From an uncultured bacterium (GTDB lineage Bacteria > Cyanobacteriota > Vampirovibrionia > Gastranaerophilales > Gastranaerophilaceae), in the NCBI GenBank assembly GCA_949293185.1, contig CASFCQ010000015.1:1-34224 (forward strand): a stretch of 34,224 bases of DNA, written 5' to 3'. The notes under the pieces are model-generated. The model did not search any database, was not told the DNA's origin, and saw only the letters and a list, made by a program, of their open reading frames with translations. Shown here in pieces: positions 1 to 26,068 of this stretch. A program made the position numbers and the translations under genes. Numbering within the stretch: the first letter of the stretch is position 1; each line of letters opens with the position of its first letter.

Positions 1-58
1 TATCTCTATATTTTTAATTCCCAGTTTTAGGTGTTTTATAACACTTTTTACGCCTATT

Positions 59-76
59 TTTACAATTTGTTACAAA
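59..76 (+). promoter_or_regulatory. HLR1-type operator (exact consensus match)
   Basis: The sequence TTTACAATTTGTTACAAA fits the cyanobacterial HLR1 consensus (G/T)TTACA(T/A)(T/A)-NN-(G/T)TTACA(T/A)(T/A) at every defined position. HLR1 is the established binding site of RpaB and is also reported for the related RpaA. It lies about 260 bp before a gene for a regulator of this class, so autoregulation is the natural inference. In AT-rich DNA a chance match is possible, but the second copy at 187-204 argues against it. Confidence 0.6.
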
Positions 77-83
77 ACAATGG

Positions 84-115
84 TTTTAAAATCGTTCATA
101 AGTACGATTTTTAAA
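84..115. other. Hairpin, possible terminator of an upstream gene
   Basis: Left arm 84-95 and right arm 104-115 pair over 12 bp with one mismatch around the 8-nt loop TCATAAGT. The stem is AT-rich, and the only T run lies inside the right arm. It could end a transcript entering from the left of the window. Confidence 0.35.
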
Positions 116-151
116 GATGTTCGGGCATTTTTTATTTCTTTATTATTTTTT

Positions 152-171
152 GTCGGATTGGTAAATCCGAC
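152..171. repeat. GTCGGATT/AATCCGAC hairpin
   Basis: A perfect 8-bp inverted repeat with a 4-nt loop (GGTA). It is not directly followed by a T tract, so it is not a textbook terminator. It sits between the two HLR1-like sites and just before the TATAAT box, so it may be regulatory or a remnant of a dispersed repeat. Confidence 0.4.
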
Positions 172-186
172 CTACGTGCTTGTTTT

Positions 187-204
187 TTTATAATTTGTCA
201 CAAA
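187..204 (+). promoter_or_regulatory. Second HLR1-like site overlapping a -10 box
   Basis: TTTATAATTTGTCACAAA differs from the exact site at 59-76 at two positions, one in each half. A perfect TATAAT (189-194) lies inside it, so a bound regulator would cover the promoter. No convincing -35 box is seen 16-18 bp upstream. The predicted leader to the ATG at 338 is about 135 nt. Confidence 0.45.
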
Positions 205-337
205 ACCAAATAGTCAAACCAACCCAAAAGTCTATTTTTTTCGATAGCAAAAAAATGTTATCAGTTCAAAATCTTTACAAATTCTTGTTTCATTATTTCC
301 ACTATGCGAAAATATATACACAAAAGGGGTGTGAATT

Positions 338-1054
338 ATGCCAAAAAGATTACTTGTTGTTGATGACGATGATGAAATTAGAGAGCTGCTTGAATTTGAC
401 CTAGCGCACAGCGGATATATTGTTGATACTGCATCTGACGGTATGGATGGTTTAAACAAAGCTGTAACAAACAATTATGACATCGTACTCTTAGATGTTA
501 TGATGCCAAAAATGAACGGATTTGATGTATGCAAAAATTTAAGAAAAGCAAAACCCGATATACCCGTTCTATTGCTAACGGCAAAAGGAACGATAGGTGA
601 CAAAACACAGGGGTTCGAATGCGGGGCTGATGATTATCTCGTAAAGCCGTTTGATATACAGGAAGTTCTTTTGAGGGTAAAAGCTTTGTTAAGAAGAAAC
701 TCCGACAACGCACAAAAAGATTCATCTTTTAAACAGGAAATTTTAAAAATGGGTGATATTGAACTCTTCCCAGAATCTTTAGAAACAGCAATAAACGGAA
801 AAAAAATAAAGCTTACGCCGACTGAATTCGAGATATTATACTGCCTGATGCAGCATTTTAACGATTCTGTTTCATTAGCAGTTCTGCTTGATGAAGTCTG
901 GGGTTATGATTCTGATGAAGATGTAAGAATGGTGAGGGTACACGTAGGCGGTTTAAGACAGAAAATCGAAGAAGACACCAAAAATCCCAAATACCTTCAT
1001 ACTGTCACAAATGTAGGCTACAAGCTAACACCCATAAGTGATACGGAAGATTAA
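338..1054 (+). CDS. OmpR/PhoB-family response regulator, RpaA-like
   Basis: This is a two-component DNA-binding response regulator of 238 aa. The receiver domain (about 1-120) has the acidic pocket at D9-D12, phosphoacceptor D53, T81 and K103. The winged-helix output domain (about 138-232) contains VWGYD and VRVHVGGLRQK, and ends near VGYKL. The segments EILKMGDIELFPESLE and VWGYDSDEDVRMVRVHV resemble cyanobacterial RpaA more than RpaB as I recall them. RpaA acts in circadian output and energy-balance control in photosynthetic cyanobacteria; the role here is unknown. The start follows an AGGGG ribosome site at 326-330. The gene is nearly contiguous with the histidine kinase gene (4-nt gap), which is probably its partner. 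HLR1-like sites upstream suggest autoregulation. Confidence 0.93.
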   Translation: MPKRLLVVDDDDEIRELLEFDLAHSGYIVDTASDGMDGLNKAVTNNYDIVLLDVMMPKMNGFDVCKNLRKAKPDIPVLLLTAKGTIGDKTQGFECGADDYLVKPFDIQEVLLRVKALLRRNSDNAQKDSSFKQEILKMGDIELFPESLETAINGKKIKLTPTEFEILYCLMQHFNDSVSLAVLLDEVWGYDSDEDVRMVRVHVGGLRQKIEEDTKNPKYLHTVTNVGYKLTPISDTED

Positions 1055-1058
1055 TTAT

Positions 1059-2747
1059 ATGACAAAAATCCGTGACATAAAAAGACTTAAAATTGTAGAA
1101 CAAATTATCCTTGTTCTTCTTCTGGCTGTCATTACTCCGACAATCGTCACAACATTTATTGTAAATAATATAAACCAGCACGCAGTAAGAAACGAGCTCC
1201 AATATTCAGCATTGAGCATATCAGAATCTATTGCATCTAATATAGAAACTTTTACGCGTTCGGGTGAAGACGAGTTGGAACAGATTGTTCTCACTCTCAG
1301 GCACATTCCTGACGCAAAGTCAAAATCAGAGTATTTAAAAGAACTCTTTACCAACTCCAAGCTTATATCAAAACTGCAAATAATACACAAAAATGATAAA
1401 GATAAATATTTTAAATGGGATGAATACTCTTACTACGACAAAGAAAAACAGGAAATACAAATACTAAAAAAAATAAATAACAATGAAGCAATACTTGCCA
1501 CTGTTGATATACAAACGTTTAAAGACCAAATTTTTAATATTTACAAAAAAGACGACAGACAAATTTACATCCTGGACAAGAATAAAACGCTTTTAGCTGC
1601 TCATAATTACAACAAAAAAGACTTTGACAGGGTAACTTATGCACTACCTAAAAATTTGCTTTTAAACCAATCTCAGCTTTTTGGCAAAGTAAAAAACCAG
1701 CCTCTTGCTTATTTCAAGCTTACTGATCCGGAGCTGGTCATTATCGTTAACACAACTCATCACATTACCAAAACAACAATTAACACGGCAAGATACAAAA
1801 TTATACTGGCTTTGTGTTTGTCTGCTTTCTTTATTATATTCGTTGTCGGCATTTACACATCATACCTGTATATTAACATCAGACAGCTGTTTAAAGGAAT
1901 TATTGCCCTGTCTAAAGGTAATTACAACAGAAAAATAAGAATGCTGTCCAATATTTTTACTCCGTACGAAATTATATTTCTTGCGACCGAGTTCAACAAT
2001 ATGGCGGACGAAATTAACAACACATACAAAAAGCTTAAACACACAAACAAAGAACTTAAAAAGCTGGATGAATTTCGCTCAAATTTAATTGACACGGTAA
2101 GCCACGAGTTCCGCACGCCTCTGACCAGCATAAAAGGTTATACGTCAAGACTTTTAAGGCAGGACATAGAACTTGATGAAGAAACAATTCAAAAATCTTT
2201 AAAAATCATAAAAAATCAGTCCGAAAGGCTAAGCAGAATGGTTGAGGATTTGCTAGTTATACCTGACATAGAAGGCTCTAAATTGAATCTTATCATAGAC
2301 AACGTAAACCTTGCCGACACAATAAACGATGCTATTCTTTCTACAAAGCATAAAGCGCAAAGAGAGGTTATAGTAAACATTCCGGAAGAATTCCCCGACG
2401 TATGGGCTGATAACGACAGGCTGGAACAGGTATTTATAAACCTTATTGACAATGCATACAAATATTCTTACGAAGACACACCTATTGTTATTGATGTAAC
2501 TCAAGCCAAAAGCCAGGCAGTTGTTAAAGTATCTAACTCCTATGATTACATACCTCCGGATAAATTAAATAAGCTGTTTGGAAAATTTATCAGAATCGAC
2601 GACAAAACAACACGCACTACCCGCGGCACAGGTTTGGGGCTGTTTATTGTAAAAGGTCTTATACTTGCAATGAATGGCTCTATAGAGCTAGAGTCTTCTA
2701 AAGAAAATATTTTTAGTGTAGTTATAAAGCTTCCTATTAAAGAATAA
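1059..2747 (+). CDS. Membrane sensor histidine kinase with degenerate G1 box
   Basis: A 562-aa sensor kinase, probably the partner of the RpaA-like regulator encoded 4 nt upstream. Transmembrane helices at about 15-37 and 247-270 enclose an extracytoplasmic domain of about 210 residues. A HAMP region and a short coiled linker follow, then a HisKA domain with the H-box SHEFRTPLTSIKGY (phospho-acceptor His349). The HATPase_c domain has an N-box with NLIDNAYKYS and a clear G2 box TRGTGLGLFIVKG. The expected G1 box (DxGxG) reads N493-S-Y495-D-Y497-I-P, so the adenine-contacting Asp and both glycines are replaced. The ATG at 1059 is chosen because GGAAG lies 9 nt before it; a GTG at 1038 would overlap the regulator gene and lacks this spacing. 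The bound signal is not apparent. Confidence 0.92.
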   Translation: MTKIRDIKRLKIVEQIILVLLLAVITPTIVTTFIVNNINQHAVRNELQYSALSISESIASNIETFTRSGEDELEQIVLTLRHIPDAKSKSEYLKELFTNSKLISKLQIIHKNDKDKYFKWDEYSYYDKEKQEIQILKKINNNEAILATVDIQTFKDQIFNIYKKDDRQIYILDKNKTLLAAHNYNKKDFDRVTYALPKNLLLNQSQLFGKVKNQPLAYFKLTDPELVIIVNTTHHITKTTINTARYKIILALCLSAFFIIFVVGIYTSYLYINIRQLFKGIIALSKGNYNRKIRMLSNIFTPYEIIFLATEFNNMADEINNTYKKLKHTNKELKKLDEFRSNLIDTVSHEFRTPLTSIKGYTSRLLRQDIELDEETIQKSLKIIKNQSERLSRMVEDLLVIPDIEGSKLNLIIDNVNLADTINDAILSTKHKAQREVIVNIPEEFPDVWADNDRLEQVFINLIDNAYKYSYEDTPIVIDVTQAKSQAVVKVSNSYDYIPPDKLNKLFGKFIRIDDKTTRTTRGTGLGLFIVKGLILAMNGSIELESSKENIFSVVIKLPIKE

Positions 2748-2845: not shown

Positions 2846-4009
2846 ATGAGCGTCGGCAACAGCGTACAAGTTACAACTACAGAAACCGGCTGGGTTCTAA
2901 CAAAAACCGTCGGTGACAAAAAGACTGAAATACAGTTTACTGACGAAAATAAAAACGGCAGGCTGGACAATGCTGATAAAAGAGCAAAAGTTATTTCTTT
3001 AGCCGCCGGTGATCTTACAACAGAAGAATTTAACGCTGCTCAAAAATCTATATCTGCAGAATTGGCTAATCAAGATGGTGCATCTGTCGGCGACTGGTAC
3101 AAAAACAAAGCTACAGAAGAACAGGAAGAAGCCCGCGCAGAAGCTTTTGAAAGACAACAGCGCCAGCAAAGAATGGCTCAATATGGAACAAAAAACAAAA
3201 AGAATAATTTCTGGAACAAAGCTGCTACATTTTTAGGTGCACTGTGCGGATTCGGCGGAGGATTTTTCTCCAACGGATGGCAATATAATTCCGGCAGTTT
3301 CAATGACTGGAATCTGAGATTGTTCACAACTGGTGTTAACGGGCTTGCAACTACAAGCAGCCTCTTAAATGCAACTTACGGAAACCAGCTTAACGCAACC
3401 AACTATATGTCAGGCGGTTCAACTAATATGTTTAGTTCTGATTTTATAAATCAAATGATGAACGCACAAAATGAATATCTACAAAATCAGAAATCACAAT
3501 TTGATGAGATGATGGAAACTTACAACCAGGCTCAAAAAGAAAATCAAGTTAAAGCTGATGCCAAGGCAACCGCACAATTAGCACAACAGCTTTCAGAAGA
3601 ATACGCAAATGCTGACGAATCACAAATAGCGACAGCAAATAAAAATAAAATTAAAGAAATATATTCAAATGTAAAAGAAGACAGTGAATATACAGCTGAA
3701 GAAAAAGCAATTCTTACAAAAATAAAAGCTTACCCGCAAATACCGTATGATGCTGTTGATGACAAAGGCAGCAATGAAAACGGAAAATTCAGCACCAAAG
3801 TAGCTAAAGCTATAAACGAATTACTTGCTGATTATAACAGCAATAAAACAGATATCGCTAAAAATAATGTATTATCAGCAACAAGTCATACAAAACTGAA
3901 TGAACTCATTAAAAAAGCTCAACAGGGCGGAATAACAGAAGCTGATTTACAAGAAATAGACAAAATAATAGACGAATGGAAAAAGAATAAATCTACAGAA
4001 GAAGAATAA
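2846..4009 (+). CDS. Hypothetical protein with EF-hand-like Ca2+ loop
   Basis: 387 aa, family not recognised. Residues 33-44 read DENKNGRLDNAD, which fits a 12-residue EF-hand/dockerin-type calcium loop (acidic or amide ligands at 1, 3, 5, 9 and 12, Gly at 6). Residues about 80-110 form a Glu/Arg/Gln-rich helix. A Gly/Phe-rich hydrophobic stretch (about 126-140, including GALCGFGGGFF) and an Asn/Ser-rich segment follow. The C-terminal half is Gln/Lys/Glu-rich and probably helical. There is no classical N-terminal signal peptide. The start is preceded by AGAGG (2834-2838). The gene stands between the two-component pair and a strong terminator, so it may be read from the upstream genes or its own promoter; an HLR1-like site lies just before it. 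Surface or structural roles are possible but unproven. Confidence 0.75.
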   Translation: MSVGNSVQVTTTETGWVLTKTVGDKKTEIQFTDENKNGRLDNADKRAKVISLAAGDLTTEEFNAAQKSISAELANQDGASVGDWYKNKATEEQEEARAEAFERQQRQQRMAQYGTKNKKNNFWNKAATFLGALCGFGGGFFSNGWQYNSGSFNDWNLRLFTTGVNGLATTSSLLNATYGNQLNATNYMSGGSTNMFSSDFINQMMNAQNEYLQNQKSQFDEMMETYNQAQKENQVKADAKATAQLAQQLSEEYANADESQIATANKNKIKEIYSNVKEDSEYTAEEKAILTKIKAYPQIPYDAVDDKGSNENGKFSTKVAKAINELLADYNSNKTDIAKNNVLSATSHTKLNELIKKAQQGGITEADLQEIDKIIDEWKKNKSTEEE

Positions 4010-6170: not shown

Positions 6171-7688
6171 TTATGAGAACAATGAAGACTTGAAGGTTTC
6201 CAGATTTTTCTTCAATTCAGCCTTATCATTGTCATCCAAAGCAGCACCGCTATTGAGTTTTTCAGCCAATGCAGACATATTTGCTTCAAAATACTCAAAC
6301 CATTCTTTTTTGAATTTTTGAATTTTGGAATTATCAATATCGTCCAATATCCCCTCGTTAGCAGCAAAAAGGATACTAACCTGTTTTGCAACGCTCAATG
6401 GTGAATATTGCGGCTGTTTTAACACTTCTGTCAGTTTCTGACCTCTTAAAAGCTGATCCTGAGTAGCTTTATCAAGGTCTGATGCAAACTGTGCAAACGC
6501 TTCCAATTCTCTAAACTGCGCAAGGTCAAGTCTTAACTTACCGCCGACCTGTTTTGTTGCTTTTGTTTGAGCGGCACCGCCTACACGTGATACAGATATA
6601 CCTGCGTTAATAGCTGGTCTTATACCTGAGTTGAACAAGCCGGTTTCTAAGAATATCTGACCGTCGGTAATTGAAATTACGTTAGTCGGAATATACGCAG
6701 AAACATCGCCTGCCTGAGTTTCGATGATAGGAAGCGCGGTAATAGAGCCTCCGCCTAATTTGTCATTCAACTTACAAGCTCTTTCCAGCAATCTTGAGTG
6801 CAGGTAGAATACGTCGCCCGGATATGCTTCTCGTCCCGGCGGACGTCTTAAAAGCAAACTCATTGCACGATATGCCTGGGCGTGTTTTGTGAGGTCATCA
6901 TACACAATCAAAACATCTCTGCCCTGTTCCATAAACTCTTCCGCAATTGCAACACCTGCAAACGGTGCAATAAACTGCAGCGGAGCGGACTCATCAGCAG
7001 TAGCGGAAACAATGATTGTATAATCCATTGCGCCGAAATCCTCAAGTTTTTTGGCAAGCTGAGCAACAGTAGATGTTTTCTGACCGATTGCAACGTAAAC
7101 ACAGATAACGTTTTGACCTTTCTGGTTAATGATTGTATCGATTGCAATCGCTGTTTTACCGGTTTGTCTGTCGCCGATAATCAACTCACGCTGACCTCTG
7201 CCGATAGGAGTAAGGGCGTCAATTGCAGTCAAACCTGTTTGCAAAGGCTGGTGTACTGATTTTCTTGATACAATACCAGGAGCTACTCTTTCAACCGGTC
7301 TTGTTTTTTCGTAATGGATTTCGCCTTTGCCATCTACAGGACGTCCTGTCGGGCTGACGATTCTGCCGATAAGACCGTCACCTACCGGAACAGATGCAAT
7401 TCTGCCGGTTGTTTTAACAGTCATACCCTCTTTTATGTGTTGATATTCACCGAGAATAACAACACCAACATTGTCTTCTTCAAGGTTCAGTGTAATACCT
7501 AGTGTACCTTTGCCGTCTTCAAATTCAACAAGCTCGTTTGACATTGCATTACGCAAACCGTACACACGGGCAATACCGTCGCCGACTTCCAGCACAGAGC
7601 CGATATTGGAAACTTCCATCTCCGAGGAATAATTTTCAATTTTGGCTTTGATTATAGAAGTAATTTCTTCCGGTCTAATTGTTGCCAT
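6171..7688 (-). CDS. atpA: ATP synthase alpha subunit
   Basis: 505 aa, the usual family length. This is the non-catalytic nucleotide-binding subunit of the F1 hexamer. The N-terminal beta-barrel carries [15 protein letters not shown]. The P-loop is GDRQTGKT at 172-179, followed by [23 protein letters not shown]. The Walker B region is [16 protein letters not shown], then [20 protein letters not shown], and the family signature [17 protein letters not shown] is present. The C-terminal helical domain ends in [14 protein letters not shown]. It follows atpH by 58 nt. A strong hairpin lies directly after it. Confidence 0.98.
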
Positions 7689-23514: not shown

Positions 23515-25110
23515 TTATCCTGAGGCAATATCCTTTTTGAGTTCTTTTTCACCGAGGATTTTAAGATGTCTGTCTTCCCCTTCACCAATGCTGACAGAAG
23601 AAAGGTTGTGCTGATCCACTAAATCGTGCTGGAGTTTTCTTATATGCTGGCTCTGGGGCGAAAGTTCCACAGACTCGCCGGTTTCCATAACTTTTTGGAT
23701 AGCTTCTTTTGCCTCATCCAGAGCTTCTTCTGTCTCATCGTGGAATACAATTCTATTGTCATCTTTTAACCCGAGTGCCTCTTTCAAAACCTTTTGCACC
23801 TGTGAAGTAGAATTTGAACGCACGTAATAAACAGGCAGCCTGTATTCATTGGCAATGCTCAAAATCTTGTTACCGCCTTTGGCAAAGTTTTTGTGTGCAA
23901 TGATTATATCTGCATCGTCTATATTTTTTGTAAGCTCTGCATTAAGATTAAGACGCTCTATTGACTTGTCCATAATAGAACGGCTGACTGCATAGATGTA
24001 TATTTTTTTATAACCCTTTACCTCTTTTACATATTTTTCACGCGAAAAACTAAAGTTAAGAGCATTGTTTGCCGAAGTAATTTTGTTATCAAGCTGGTTG
24101 ATTTTTTCCATAAGATTCGGCTCTTGGGGCTGTGTCATATCAACTTTTCTTATTATCGGTTTGATAGGCCAGCCTCTTAAAATGCAATCTACCGCTTCTG
24201 CTGTATCAGGATATACAGCAAGAGTGTTACGGTCTATAATTTCTATAACAATATCAAAAGTCGGCTGTTTTTCTCTTTCGAGAACCGTTTTTTGAGAAGC
24301 TCTTCTTTTAGCCTCGTCATCACCGAGCGTAACAGACTGTATCCCGCCGACAAGATCTGAAAGCACAGGGTTTTTGATTAAGTTTTCAAGAGAATTGCCG
24401 TGGGCTGTAGCAATAAGCATTACGCCTCTTTCCGCTATTGTTCTGGCTGCTTGCGCTTCGGCTTCAGTTCCGATTTCGTCCACCACAATAACTTCCGGTG
24501 TATGGTTTTCTACAGCTTCTATCATAATATCTTTTTGAAATTCAGGCTGCGTAACCTGCATACGTCTGGCATGCCCGATAGCAGGATGGGGAGTATCGCC
24601 GTCACCGGCAATTTCGTTAGATGTATCTACAACGACGACACGTTTGTGCAATTCGTCAGCCACAAGCCTTGAGATTTCTCTCAATTTTGTTGTTTTGCCT
24701 ACACCCGGTCGTCCTAAGAACAAAATACTTTTATTTTGTACGACAAAATCTTTTATGCAAGCAATTGTACCTGTAACAACTCTCCCTATTCTGCAGGTAA
24801 GACCTACAATTTTTCCCTGTCTGTTCCTGATAGCACTTATCCTGTGTAATGTACCAGGGATTCCGGAGCGGTTGTCTTTTGTAAACTCCTGCACTCTGTC
24901 AGTTATATATTTTATATCTTCATCAACAATATTATCCTCGCCGAGGTAATCTATTGTGCCGTCAGCGTGCCGTATTTCGGGCTGTCTGCCTAAATCTAAT
25001 ACCAGTTCAATTACGTCATCTAATGCTTCATGGCTCAAACATTTTGTAATCTTTGGCGGTAGAATTTCAATTAACCTATCCAGGTCACTGTGAAATTGTA
25101 CTTTATTCAT
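23515..25110 (-). CDS. AAA ATPase with R3H domain (Ycf45/SpoIIIAA-like)
   Basis: 531 aa. The N-terminal region (LPPKITKCLSHEALDDVIELVLDLGRQPEIRH) and the ATPase core match the SpoIIIAA/Ycf45 group. The Walker A is G133-RPGVGKT-T141, followed by VVVVDTSNEIAGDGDTPH and a Walker B VIVVDEIGTEAEAQAA. After a long linker, the C-terminus holds an R3H nucleic-acid-binding domain with RKLQHDLVDQH (about 486-520). This AAA+R3H form is typical of cyanobacteria and some plastid genomes (Ycf45), and its function is not settled; single-stranded nucleic-acid binding is inferred. It is monocistronic. AAGGG lies about 12 nt before the start. A TATAAT-type -10 is seen in the upstream intergenic region. Confidence 0.88.
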   Translation of the reverse strand: MNKVQFHSDLDRLIEILPPKITKCLSHEALDDVIELVLDLGRQPEIRHADGTIDYLGEDNIVDEDIKYITDRVQEFTKDNRSGIPGTLHRISAIRNRQGKIVGLTCRIGRVVTGTIACIKDFVVQNKSILFLGRPGVGKTTKLREISRLVADELHKRVVVVDTSNEIAGDGDTPHPAIGHARRMQVTQPEFQKDIMIEAVENHTPEVIVVDEIGTEAEAQAARTIAERGVMLIATAHGNSLENLIKNPVLSDLVGGIQSVTLGDDEAKRRASQKTVLEREKQPTFDIVIEIIDRNTLAVYPDTAEAVDCILRGWPIKPIIRKVDMTQPQEPNLMEKINQLDNKITSANNALNFSFSREKYVKEVKGYKKIYIYAVSRSIMDKSIERLNLNAELTKNIDDADIIIAHKNFAKGGNKILSIANEYRLPVYYVRSNSTSQVQKVLKEALGLKDDNRIVFHDETEEALDEAKEAIQKVMETGESVELSPQSQHIRKLQHDLVDQHNLSSVSIGEGEDRHLKILGEKELKKDIASG

Positions 25111-25444
25111 ATAATTTTATGCCCTTTCAATCGGCTGATACTTTGTGTGTTGATTCTCCCTTGTTTTTGATTATGAATATTACTTACATTTATATTATAA
25201 CATCTTTTTTAATCAAAGGCATTATCTAATCATACTACTTTTGTAGTAAATTTACATATCTTTATAAAAACAAACAGAATTATACAAACACTTGATACGC
25301 AGGGATTTGCTGCTTTAACATTATTTATAATATTACAAAATATTAATTAGTTTTTAAAATTTTAGCAATTTATTACAACAAACATTTTTTATTAAAACAT
25401 AAGTGTTAGTAATTTATGTGTGATTTTACAGAAAGGTAGATAAA
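25111..25444. other. Divergent AT-rich promoter region with a palindrome
   Basis: About 330 bases between the Ycf45-like gene (minus) and the 207-aa gene (plus). No gene is seen. It contains a minus-strand TATAAT near 25195, a plus-strand TATAAT at 25326-25331 without a good -35, and a perfect TACTAC-TTTT-GTAGTA palindrome at 25233-25248 that could be a repressor site. The rest is very AT-rich. Confidence 0.6.
25233..25248. promoter_or_regulatory. TACTAC-N4-GTAGTA palindrome
   Basis: A perfect 6-bp inverted repeat around TTTT. Its size and symmetry suit a dimeric repressor operator, but no cognate regulator is identifiable here. Confidence 0.35.
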
Positions 25445-26068
25445 ATGGTCGCCGGTATTAATTCGTTAGGTGTAAACAAACAACAGAACAATGCTTTTTT
25501 GAAGGGAAATAAAAGCAGTGAAAAAGCATTAAACAACTTAAAATACCTCACTGCATCAGGGGTTATTATCGGAGGGGGAATTGCTGCTGGTAAAGCAGTT
25601 TTGAACAATCCAAACAACAGCTTTGTCACATCAATGGATAAAAATATGACTAAAGGGGCTGAATTCCTTGCTAACGGCGGTTTAAAAGATGTTTATCAAA
25701 AAACCAAAAATTATGCCGGCGAAACATTTTCCCGCATAGAAAGCAAACTCCCCAATAACAACACTATGAATAAAATCGGTGACTATTTAAGCAAAGCAAA
25801 AAATATATTCAATAAAGGTTTAAACCAAGCAAAGAAATTTGCTGCACCTCTTTGGAACAAGATTAAAGGTCCTGTAACAGGTTTATTGAATACTGTAAAA
25901 AACAAATCTGCAAACTTATTAACAAAATTTGCAAAACTGCCCGGACAATACAAAGTTGCCGGAGTAATCGGAGCTTTAGTTCTCACTTCCGTATTAGCAC
26001 TTTTAGGCGAAAATGCTTATCAAAACGGAAAAATTGATCAAAAATATGAAGATGCATTAAAAATGTAA
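25445..26068 (+). CDS. Hypothetical membrane-associated protein
   Basis: 207 aa, family not recognised. After an Asn/Gln-rich N-terminus (MVAGINSLGVNKQQNNAFLKGNKSS) come a Gly/Ala hydrophobic segment at about 39-57 (LTASGVIIGGGIAAGKAV), a long Lys/Asn-rich amphipathic region (about 65-165), and a second hydrophobic helix at about 172-192 (VAGVIGALVLTSVLALLG). There is no conventional signal peptide. AAAGG precedes the ATG, and a terminator closes the gene, so it is monocistronic. The amphipathic middle could lie on a membrane. The AFLKGNKSS segment faintly recalls the FKS tails of two other proteins in this window. No function is proposed. Confidence 0.72.
   Translation: MVAGINSLGVNKQQNNAFLKGNKSSEKALNNLKYLTASGVIIGGGIAAGKAVLNNPNNSFVTSMDKNMTKGAEFLANGGLKDVYQKTKNYAGETFSRIESKLPNNNTMNKIGDYLSKAKNIFNKGLNQAKKFAAPLWNKIKGPVTGLLNTVKNKSANLLTKFAKLPGQYKVAGVIGALVLTSVLALLGENAYQNGKIDQKYEDALKM

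Follow-up and report, generated by a model that had tools for sequence, protein, structure and literature searches.

The window analysed here is the whole stretch of 34,224 nucleotides and constitutes contig C15 of a 2.20-Mb genome (G000) assembled in 95 contigs. Its left end carries an OmpR-family response regulator gene with a sensor histidine kinase gene directly downstream, and the region upstream of the regulator contains promoter-like, operator-like and repeated elements. These features are:

1 to 181, no strand assigned: recently duplicated segment repeated at 96-97% identity where contigs C1, C18 and C33 end
4 to 77, minus strand: whole dispersed promoter module of ~75 bp, with 16 model matches in the own genome
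17 to 22, minus strand: minus-10 element GGGAAT, spacer 14, with GGGAA invariant in 19 of 19 aligned copies
37 to 42, minus strand: minus-35 element GTTATA of sigma-B/SigF type, 16 bp from HLR1 and kept across module copies
59 to 76, minus strand: predicted HLR1 (RpaB-type) operator, based on its perfect consensus, enrichment and fixed phasing to the minus-35 element; it reads TTTGTAACAAATTGTAAA toward the leftward gene
147 to 178, no strand assigned: dispersed GTAG-type REP-like palindrome, GTCGGATTGGTAAATCCGAC plus CTACG, with copies in the own genome and in G010, G014, G021 and G022
187 to 204, plus strand: second HLR1-like site with two mismatches, probably not functional
274 to 313, plus strand: conserved proximal promoter of the response regulator (TTTACAAATTCTTGTTTC ... 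TATGCGAAAATA), found in 22 of 22 congeners
338 to 1054, plus strand: OmpR-family response regulator, a third paralogue
1062 to 2747, plus strand: sensor histidine kinase (Pfam HisKA and HATPase_c)

An earlier note on this DNA described the sites at 59-76 and 187-204 as HLR1 motifs, the first matching at all defined positions and the second with two changes over a TATAAT box, and both descriptions are accurate. The sequence TTTACAATTTGTTACAAA at 59-76 agrees with the published consensus KTTACAWW-N2-KTTACAWW (PMC11633204; PMC13421787) at every defined position, and its half-sites form direct repeats with a 10-bp pitch. The sequence TTTATAATTTGTCACAAA at 187-204 departs from the consensus at 191 and 199 and is overlapped by TATAAT at 189-194. 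Sites with two mismatches are frequent: noncoding DNA of the own genome holds ~120 at spacer 2, where the other spacers predict roughly 80, and about two-thirds of them are thus due to chance. No counterpart of 187-204 was found in congeners. The overlapping TATAAT was rejected as the promoter of the response regulator, since it has no recognisable -35 element (166-171 reads AATCCG) and was not found in congeners.

HLR1 as a genome-wide motif in a non-photosynthetic lineage

HLR1 is far commoner in this genome than in a shuffled background. The noncoding DNA in 1.47 of the 2.20 Mb, with coding regions defined by a simple ORF rule, contains 20 perfect sites, whereas 100 dinucleotide shuffles average 0.08 and never exceed 1. 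With duplicates removed, 16 of ~17 perfect sites are noncoding. The excess is specific to the 2-bp spacer: every other half-site spacer from 0 to 12 gives 0-5 noncoding perfect matches in the same 1.47 Mb, where runs of N inflate the counts for all DNA by ~9 per spacer with no visible effect on the noncoding counts. A scan of spacers 0-8 bp over 1.19 Mb finds 0-5 perfect pairs at each of the other spacers but 16 at spacer 2, of which 15 are noncoding. These spacer and shuffle controls led to the rejection of HLR1 as a chance AT-rich match. The box recognized by WalR or B. subtilis PhoP, which has an 11-bp pitch, was also rejected, as noncoding matches peak at a 10-bp pitch and spacer 3 shows a minor excess only.

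The enrichment extends well beyond one genome. Among 194 phylum genomes, all 88 sampled from the window's family contain more HLR1 than reversed control matches (1898 vs 251 in total), and families taken by inference to be true cyanobacteria are also enriched (f11, for example, has 312 vs 32). Spacer-2-specific, noncoding and family-wide enrichment indicates that HLR1 is a working code here and not a lone coincidence. Thus, HLR1, a box that serves to regulate light genes in photosynthetic cyanobacteria, is a real genome-wide regulatory motif in a non-photosynthetic Gastranaerophilales relative of theirs. The apparently non-photosynthetic lineage proposed earlier for this DNA is the right placement, its RpaB being 82-88% identical to RpaBs from Candidatus Gastranaerophilales metagenome-assembled genomes.

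A leftward promoter module with a phased HLR1

The perfect HLR1 forms part of a promoter module on the minus strand, which in the window reads HLR1, 16 bp, GTTATA, 14 bp, GGGAAT. GTTATA-N14-GGGAAT falls within the definition of sigma-B/SigF-type promoters used here, a GTTTAA-like and a GGGWAT-like hexamer separated by 13-17 bp; the B. subtilis SigB consensus is GTTTAA-N15(+/-2)-GGGTAT (PMC9847131). In congeners, the more distant copies span only about window 4-77, most alignments beginning at 4-7 and stopping at 74-77. On the minus strand they read TTTGTAACAAATTGTAAA, 16-17 bp, GTTATA or GTTTAA, 13-14 bp, GGGAAT or GGGTAT, followed by ATATAGAGG. Within the own genome, the sigma-B-type hexamer pair peaks at spacer 13, with 6 noncoding matches compared with 0-1 at other spacings. 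The module therefore shares its hexamers and a near-identical spacer, here 13-14, with B. subtilis sigma-B promoters; it differs in its fixed upstream HLR1 and in its cognate factor, which would be a cyanobacterial SigF-like protein.

Module copies face downstream genes in a single orientation. Open frames lie to their left, which indicates that the module is directed away from the response regulator. Transcription would begin near window 10 and run leftward past the contig end. The site at 59-76, previously taken for an operator in front of the regulator, belongs instead to this leftward module.

The distance between HLR1 and the minus-35 element was determined in a set of 94 distinct sequences with a SigF-type hexamer pair, HLR1 with at most two mismatches being sought in the preceding 100 bp. 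HLR1 is present in 41 of these, at 15-17 bp in 32, 26-27 bp in 7, 37 bp in 1 and 54 bp in 1; the set was gathered partly with a model built from the module, which makes the 16-17 bp peak partly circular, while the 26-27 and 37 bp classes are not imposed by the model. The 15-17, 26-27 and 37 bp classes are whole helical turns apart, and an activator that contacts RNA polymerase from its site on the DNA would require steps of ~10 bp. Given the usual distance from minus-10 to transcript start, the HLR1 at 59-76 would span about -51 to -68. In cyanobacteria, HLR1 at -45 to -66 is activating (PMC13421787). Some SigF-type promoters carry a degenerate HLR1 or none, which counts against a model that couples RpaB to SigF promoters.

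The segment that carries the module has been duplicated recently. Its copies at the ends of C1, C18 and C33 all run off on the same side, and a near-identical multi-copy segment accounts for the break in the assembly at the window start and the absence of the leftward gene. A search with the leader motif did not find this gene on the own-genome contigs examined; synteny points to a phase-variable surface-adhesin gene as its probable identity. The REP-like palindrome at 147-178 is present in many copies in several congeners, and a lone Y1 transposase gene, located on C48, may be its partner.

Such a setting also invites a reading of the module as a MITE- or REP-like repeat, either mobile or recombinational, whose HLR1-like sequence is incidental. 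Dispersed copies do lie at contig ends, the 96-97% identical segment continues to 181, the REP-like palindrome adjoins and the genome carries one Y1 transposase. However, no terminal inverted repeats of the module were found, its conserved elements are promoter-like, precede different genes and are phased by helical turns, the promoter of a small RNA (described below) is conserved vertically across genera, and HLR1 enrichment extends far outside the module. A mobile repeat is thus distinctly unlikely. Recent segmental duplication of a promoter together with its gene fits both this explanation and an RpaB operator.

Another explanation, put forward in the earlier note, is an autoregulated circuit, in which 59-76 and 187-204 are the operators through which the response regulator at 338 controls its own gene. 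Both sites lie upstream of that regulator, and the rpaA gene of S. elongatus has an upstream HLR1 to which RpaB binds (PMC13421787). The regulator's promoter also has a TTTACAA half-site, overlapped by a two-mismatch HLR1 at 264-281. However, 264-281 lacks conservation in its upstream half, 59-76 is ~230 bp away from the likely regulator start, and the recognition helix of the regulator differs from that of RpaB. TTtACAAaTT.TTGT and TATGaGAAAATA precede the regulator in 22 of 22 congeners (window 274-313), only the half-site being constant, and none of these 22 has a full HLR1 in this conserved promoter. Alignment of relatives reveals no conservation of 59-76 or 187-204: G012 is the only other congener with a perfect HLR1 upstream of the regulator orthologue, and there, too, the leftward module lies alongside; 187-204 was not found. 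A conserved promoter that lacks a full HLR1, together with a perfect site in G012 only, makes autoregulation through 59-76 highly unlikely.

RpaB and a SigF-like factor as candidate readers

The own genome encodes three OmpR-type regulators, on C21, on C44 and in the window, and thus more than one candidate reader of HLR1. The C21 protein is an RpaB equivalog, scoring 371 bits with an NCBIfam cutoff of 330. Its recognition helix, DTRVVDVHISRLR, is identical in the RpaBs of Synechocystis, Nostoc, Prochlorococcus and Obscuribacterales, and the C21 protein is 71-75% identical over the DNA-binding region to the cyanobacterial RpaBs compared. The C44 protein, which scores 259 bits to PDB 9dvt, is the orthologue of RpaA. 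The window regulator was rejected as RpaB, its 213 bits lying below the equivalog cutoff of 330, and as the RpaA orthologue, since it scores 210 bits to 9dvt, its best PDB match, compared with 259 for the C44 protein. Its recognition helix, DVRMVRVHVGGLR, differs from that of RpaB. The earlier note was correct in calling the nearby regulator RpaA-like, although the actual RpaA orthologue is encoded on C44; its tying of the HLR1 sites to this regulator is not supported, the likely reader being the true RpaB on C21.

Reading of the HLR1-like box by one of the other two OmpR-family regulators, encoded on C44 and in the window, deserves consideration. Similar direct repeats are bound by related regulators, RpaA and RpaB compete for shared sites in S. 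elongatus (PMC13421787), and the C44 protein is a good RpaA orthologue. The RpaB recognition helix, however, is kept only in the C21 protein, to which the other two regulators are ~32% identical, and a reader other than RpaB is considered unlikely.

A SigF-like factor is encoded on C45 and is present in 23 of 23 congeners, including those with few modules. The C45 protein scores below the curated cutoffs of its closest models (188 vs 261 for PRK07408; 178 vs 234 for SigBFG). This factor would read the GTTATA-N14-GGGAAT promoter. Cyanobacterial SigF controls pili and is a regulator of pilA1; here, a module-type promoter precedes one pilin-like gene. In contrast, the core promoter of Synechocystis SigF is TAGGC/GGTAA, not GTTTAA/GGGTAT, which counts against the SigF step, as do the scores below the cutoffs and the occurrence of the factor in congeners with few modules.

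Taken with the anatomy, orientation and phasing of the module, the presence of RpaB suggests that 59-76 is probably an RpaB-type operator within a leftward SigF-type promoter, and that RpaB activates surface genes via HLR1. RpaB would bind HLR1 at 59-76 and would activate, rather than repress, from the position used in cyanobacterial activation.

Genes behind the modules and their evolutionary context

Several types of genes lie behind HLR1 modules. Copies in G000 and G009 precede leader ORFs with poly-G/poly-C tracts, followed by surface proteins of ~700-1300 aa; other targets in these two genomes include a pilin-like gene, small peptides and further ORFs. Upstream sequence is available for seven adhesin ORFs of the own genome; all seven have an HLR1 there, oriented the same way and with no more than two mismatches, and in five of them it has one at most. 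One adhesin and one small ORF match no family in Pfam. Poly-G/poly-C tracts are also seen in leader ORFs before large adhesin-like proteins at L202 7353-11747 and in L145, L146, L147 and L149; such tracts suggest phase variation by slippage.

Behind one module copy lies a predicted short transcript with the sequence UCUCUCUCUCUAAUUCCUCUCUCUAAU and then an intrinsic terminator. This CU-rich small RNA of ~95-105 nt, with a perfect HLR1 and a SigF-type promoter upstream, lies at L042 ~6316-6419 (G000:C19:11315-11418, plus strand). A model of the RNA detects it in 29 of 117 family genomes, which represent 11 genera, and once in each. Twelve loci were inspected, 7 of which come from outside the genus. 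Each has an HLR1-like box with 0-4 mismatches at 42-46 bp (in one case 54) before the start of the model; the DNA between box and start has diverged, while the box is kept. Neither the window nor the small RNA loci match Rfam at gathering thresholds. The same HLR1 and SigF-type promoter would drive other adhesins and a conserved RNA. The arrangement is reminiscent of the RpaB-PsrR1 feed-forward loop of Synechocystis, in which a trans-type small RNA also has an HLR1-associated promoter, but the RNA described here is CU-rich, ~95-105 nt long and has no Rfam match.

The closest known system is the RpaB-HLR1 regulon of Synechocystis 6803 and S. elongatus 7942. The two share the 18-bp motif with its spacer, an orthologous RpaB with an identical recognition helix, and the activating position (here about -51 to -68). 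They differ in that the Gastranaerophilales lineage lacks photosynthesis targets, and in that HLR1 here accompanies a GTTTAA/GGGWAT promoter, with adhesins, a pilin-like gene and a small RNA downstream. A further likeness involves ftsH: cyanobacterial ftsH2 and ftsH3 are RpaB targets (PMC13421787), and a perfect HLR1 with an adjoining TATAAT is found upstream of an FtsH-like gene at L174 19937-19954 (G000:C13).

The presence of RpaB and RpaA in this lineage is already known. A 2013 study recorded RpaA, RpaB and NblS in Melainabacteria and remarked that they "may have another function" (PMC3787301), and work from 2013-2014 suggested that these homologues are older than light use (PMC3787301; PMC4040986). 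The open-access literature searched yielded no account of HLR1 sites, SigF-type promoters or the CU-rich small RNA in the group, subscription papers being mostly outside the search. The claim that the circuit predates photosynthesis is not supported: a sister order of the same class has no HLR1 enrichment (3 motif vs 11 control matches, as raw counts in 11 genomes), which weakens the ancestral claim. Tentatively, RpaB might read the cyanobacterial HLR1 code, phased to SigF-type promoters, in the control of adhesins and a conserved RNA, a role that could possibly be pre-photosynthetic and later adopted for light. The HLR1 map and its coupled SigF-type promoter provide concrete, testable targets, namely the adhesins, the pilin-like gene, the small RNA and ftsH, and make the role of a master light regulator without photosynthesis accessible to direct experiment.

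Two other HLR1-like sequences occur in the window. Tandem half-sites at 2752-2779, comprising two overlapping one-mismatch matches, lie between the histidine kinase gene and the ORF at 2846-4009, which matches no Pfam family. A one-mismatch HLR1 is located at 25251-25268, in the divergent intergenic region between the ORFs at 23515-25110 (minus strand) and 25445-26068 (plus strand).
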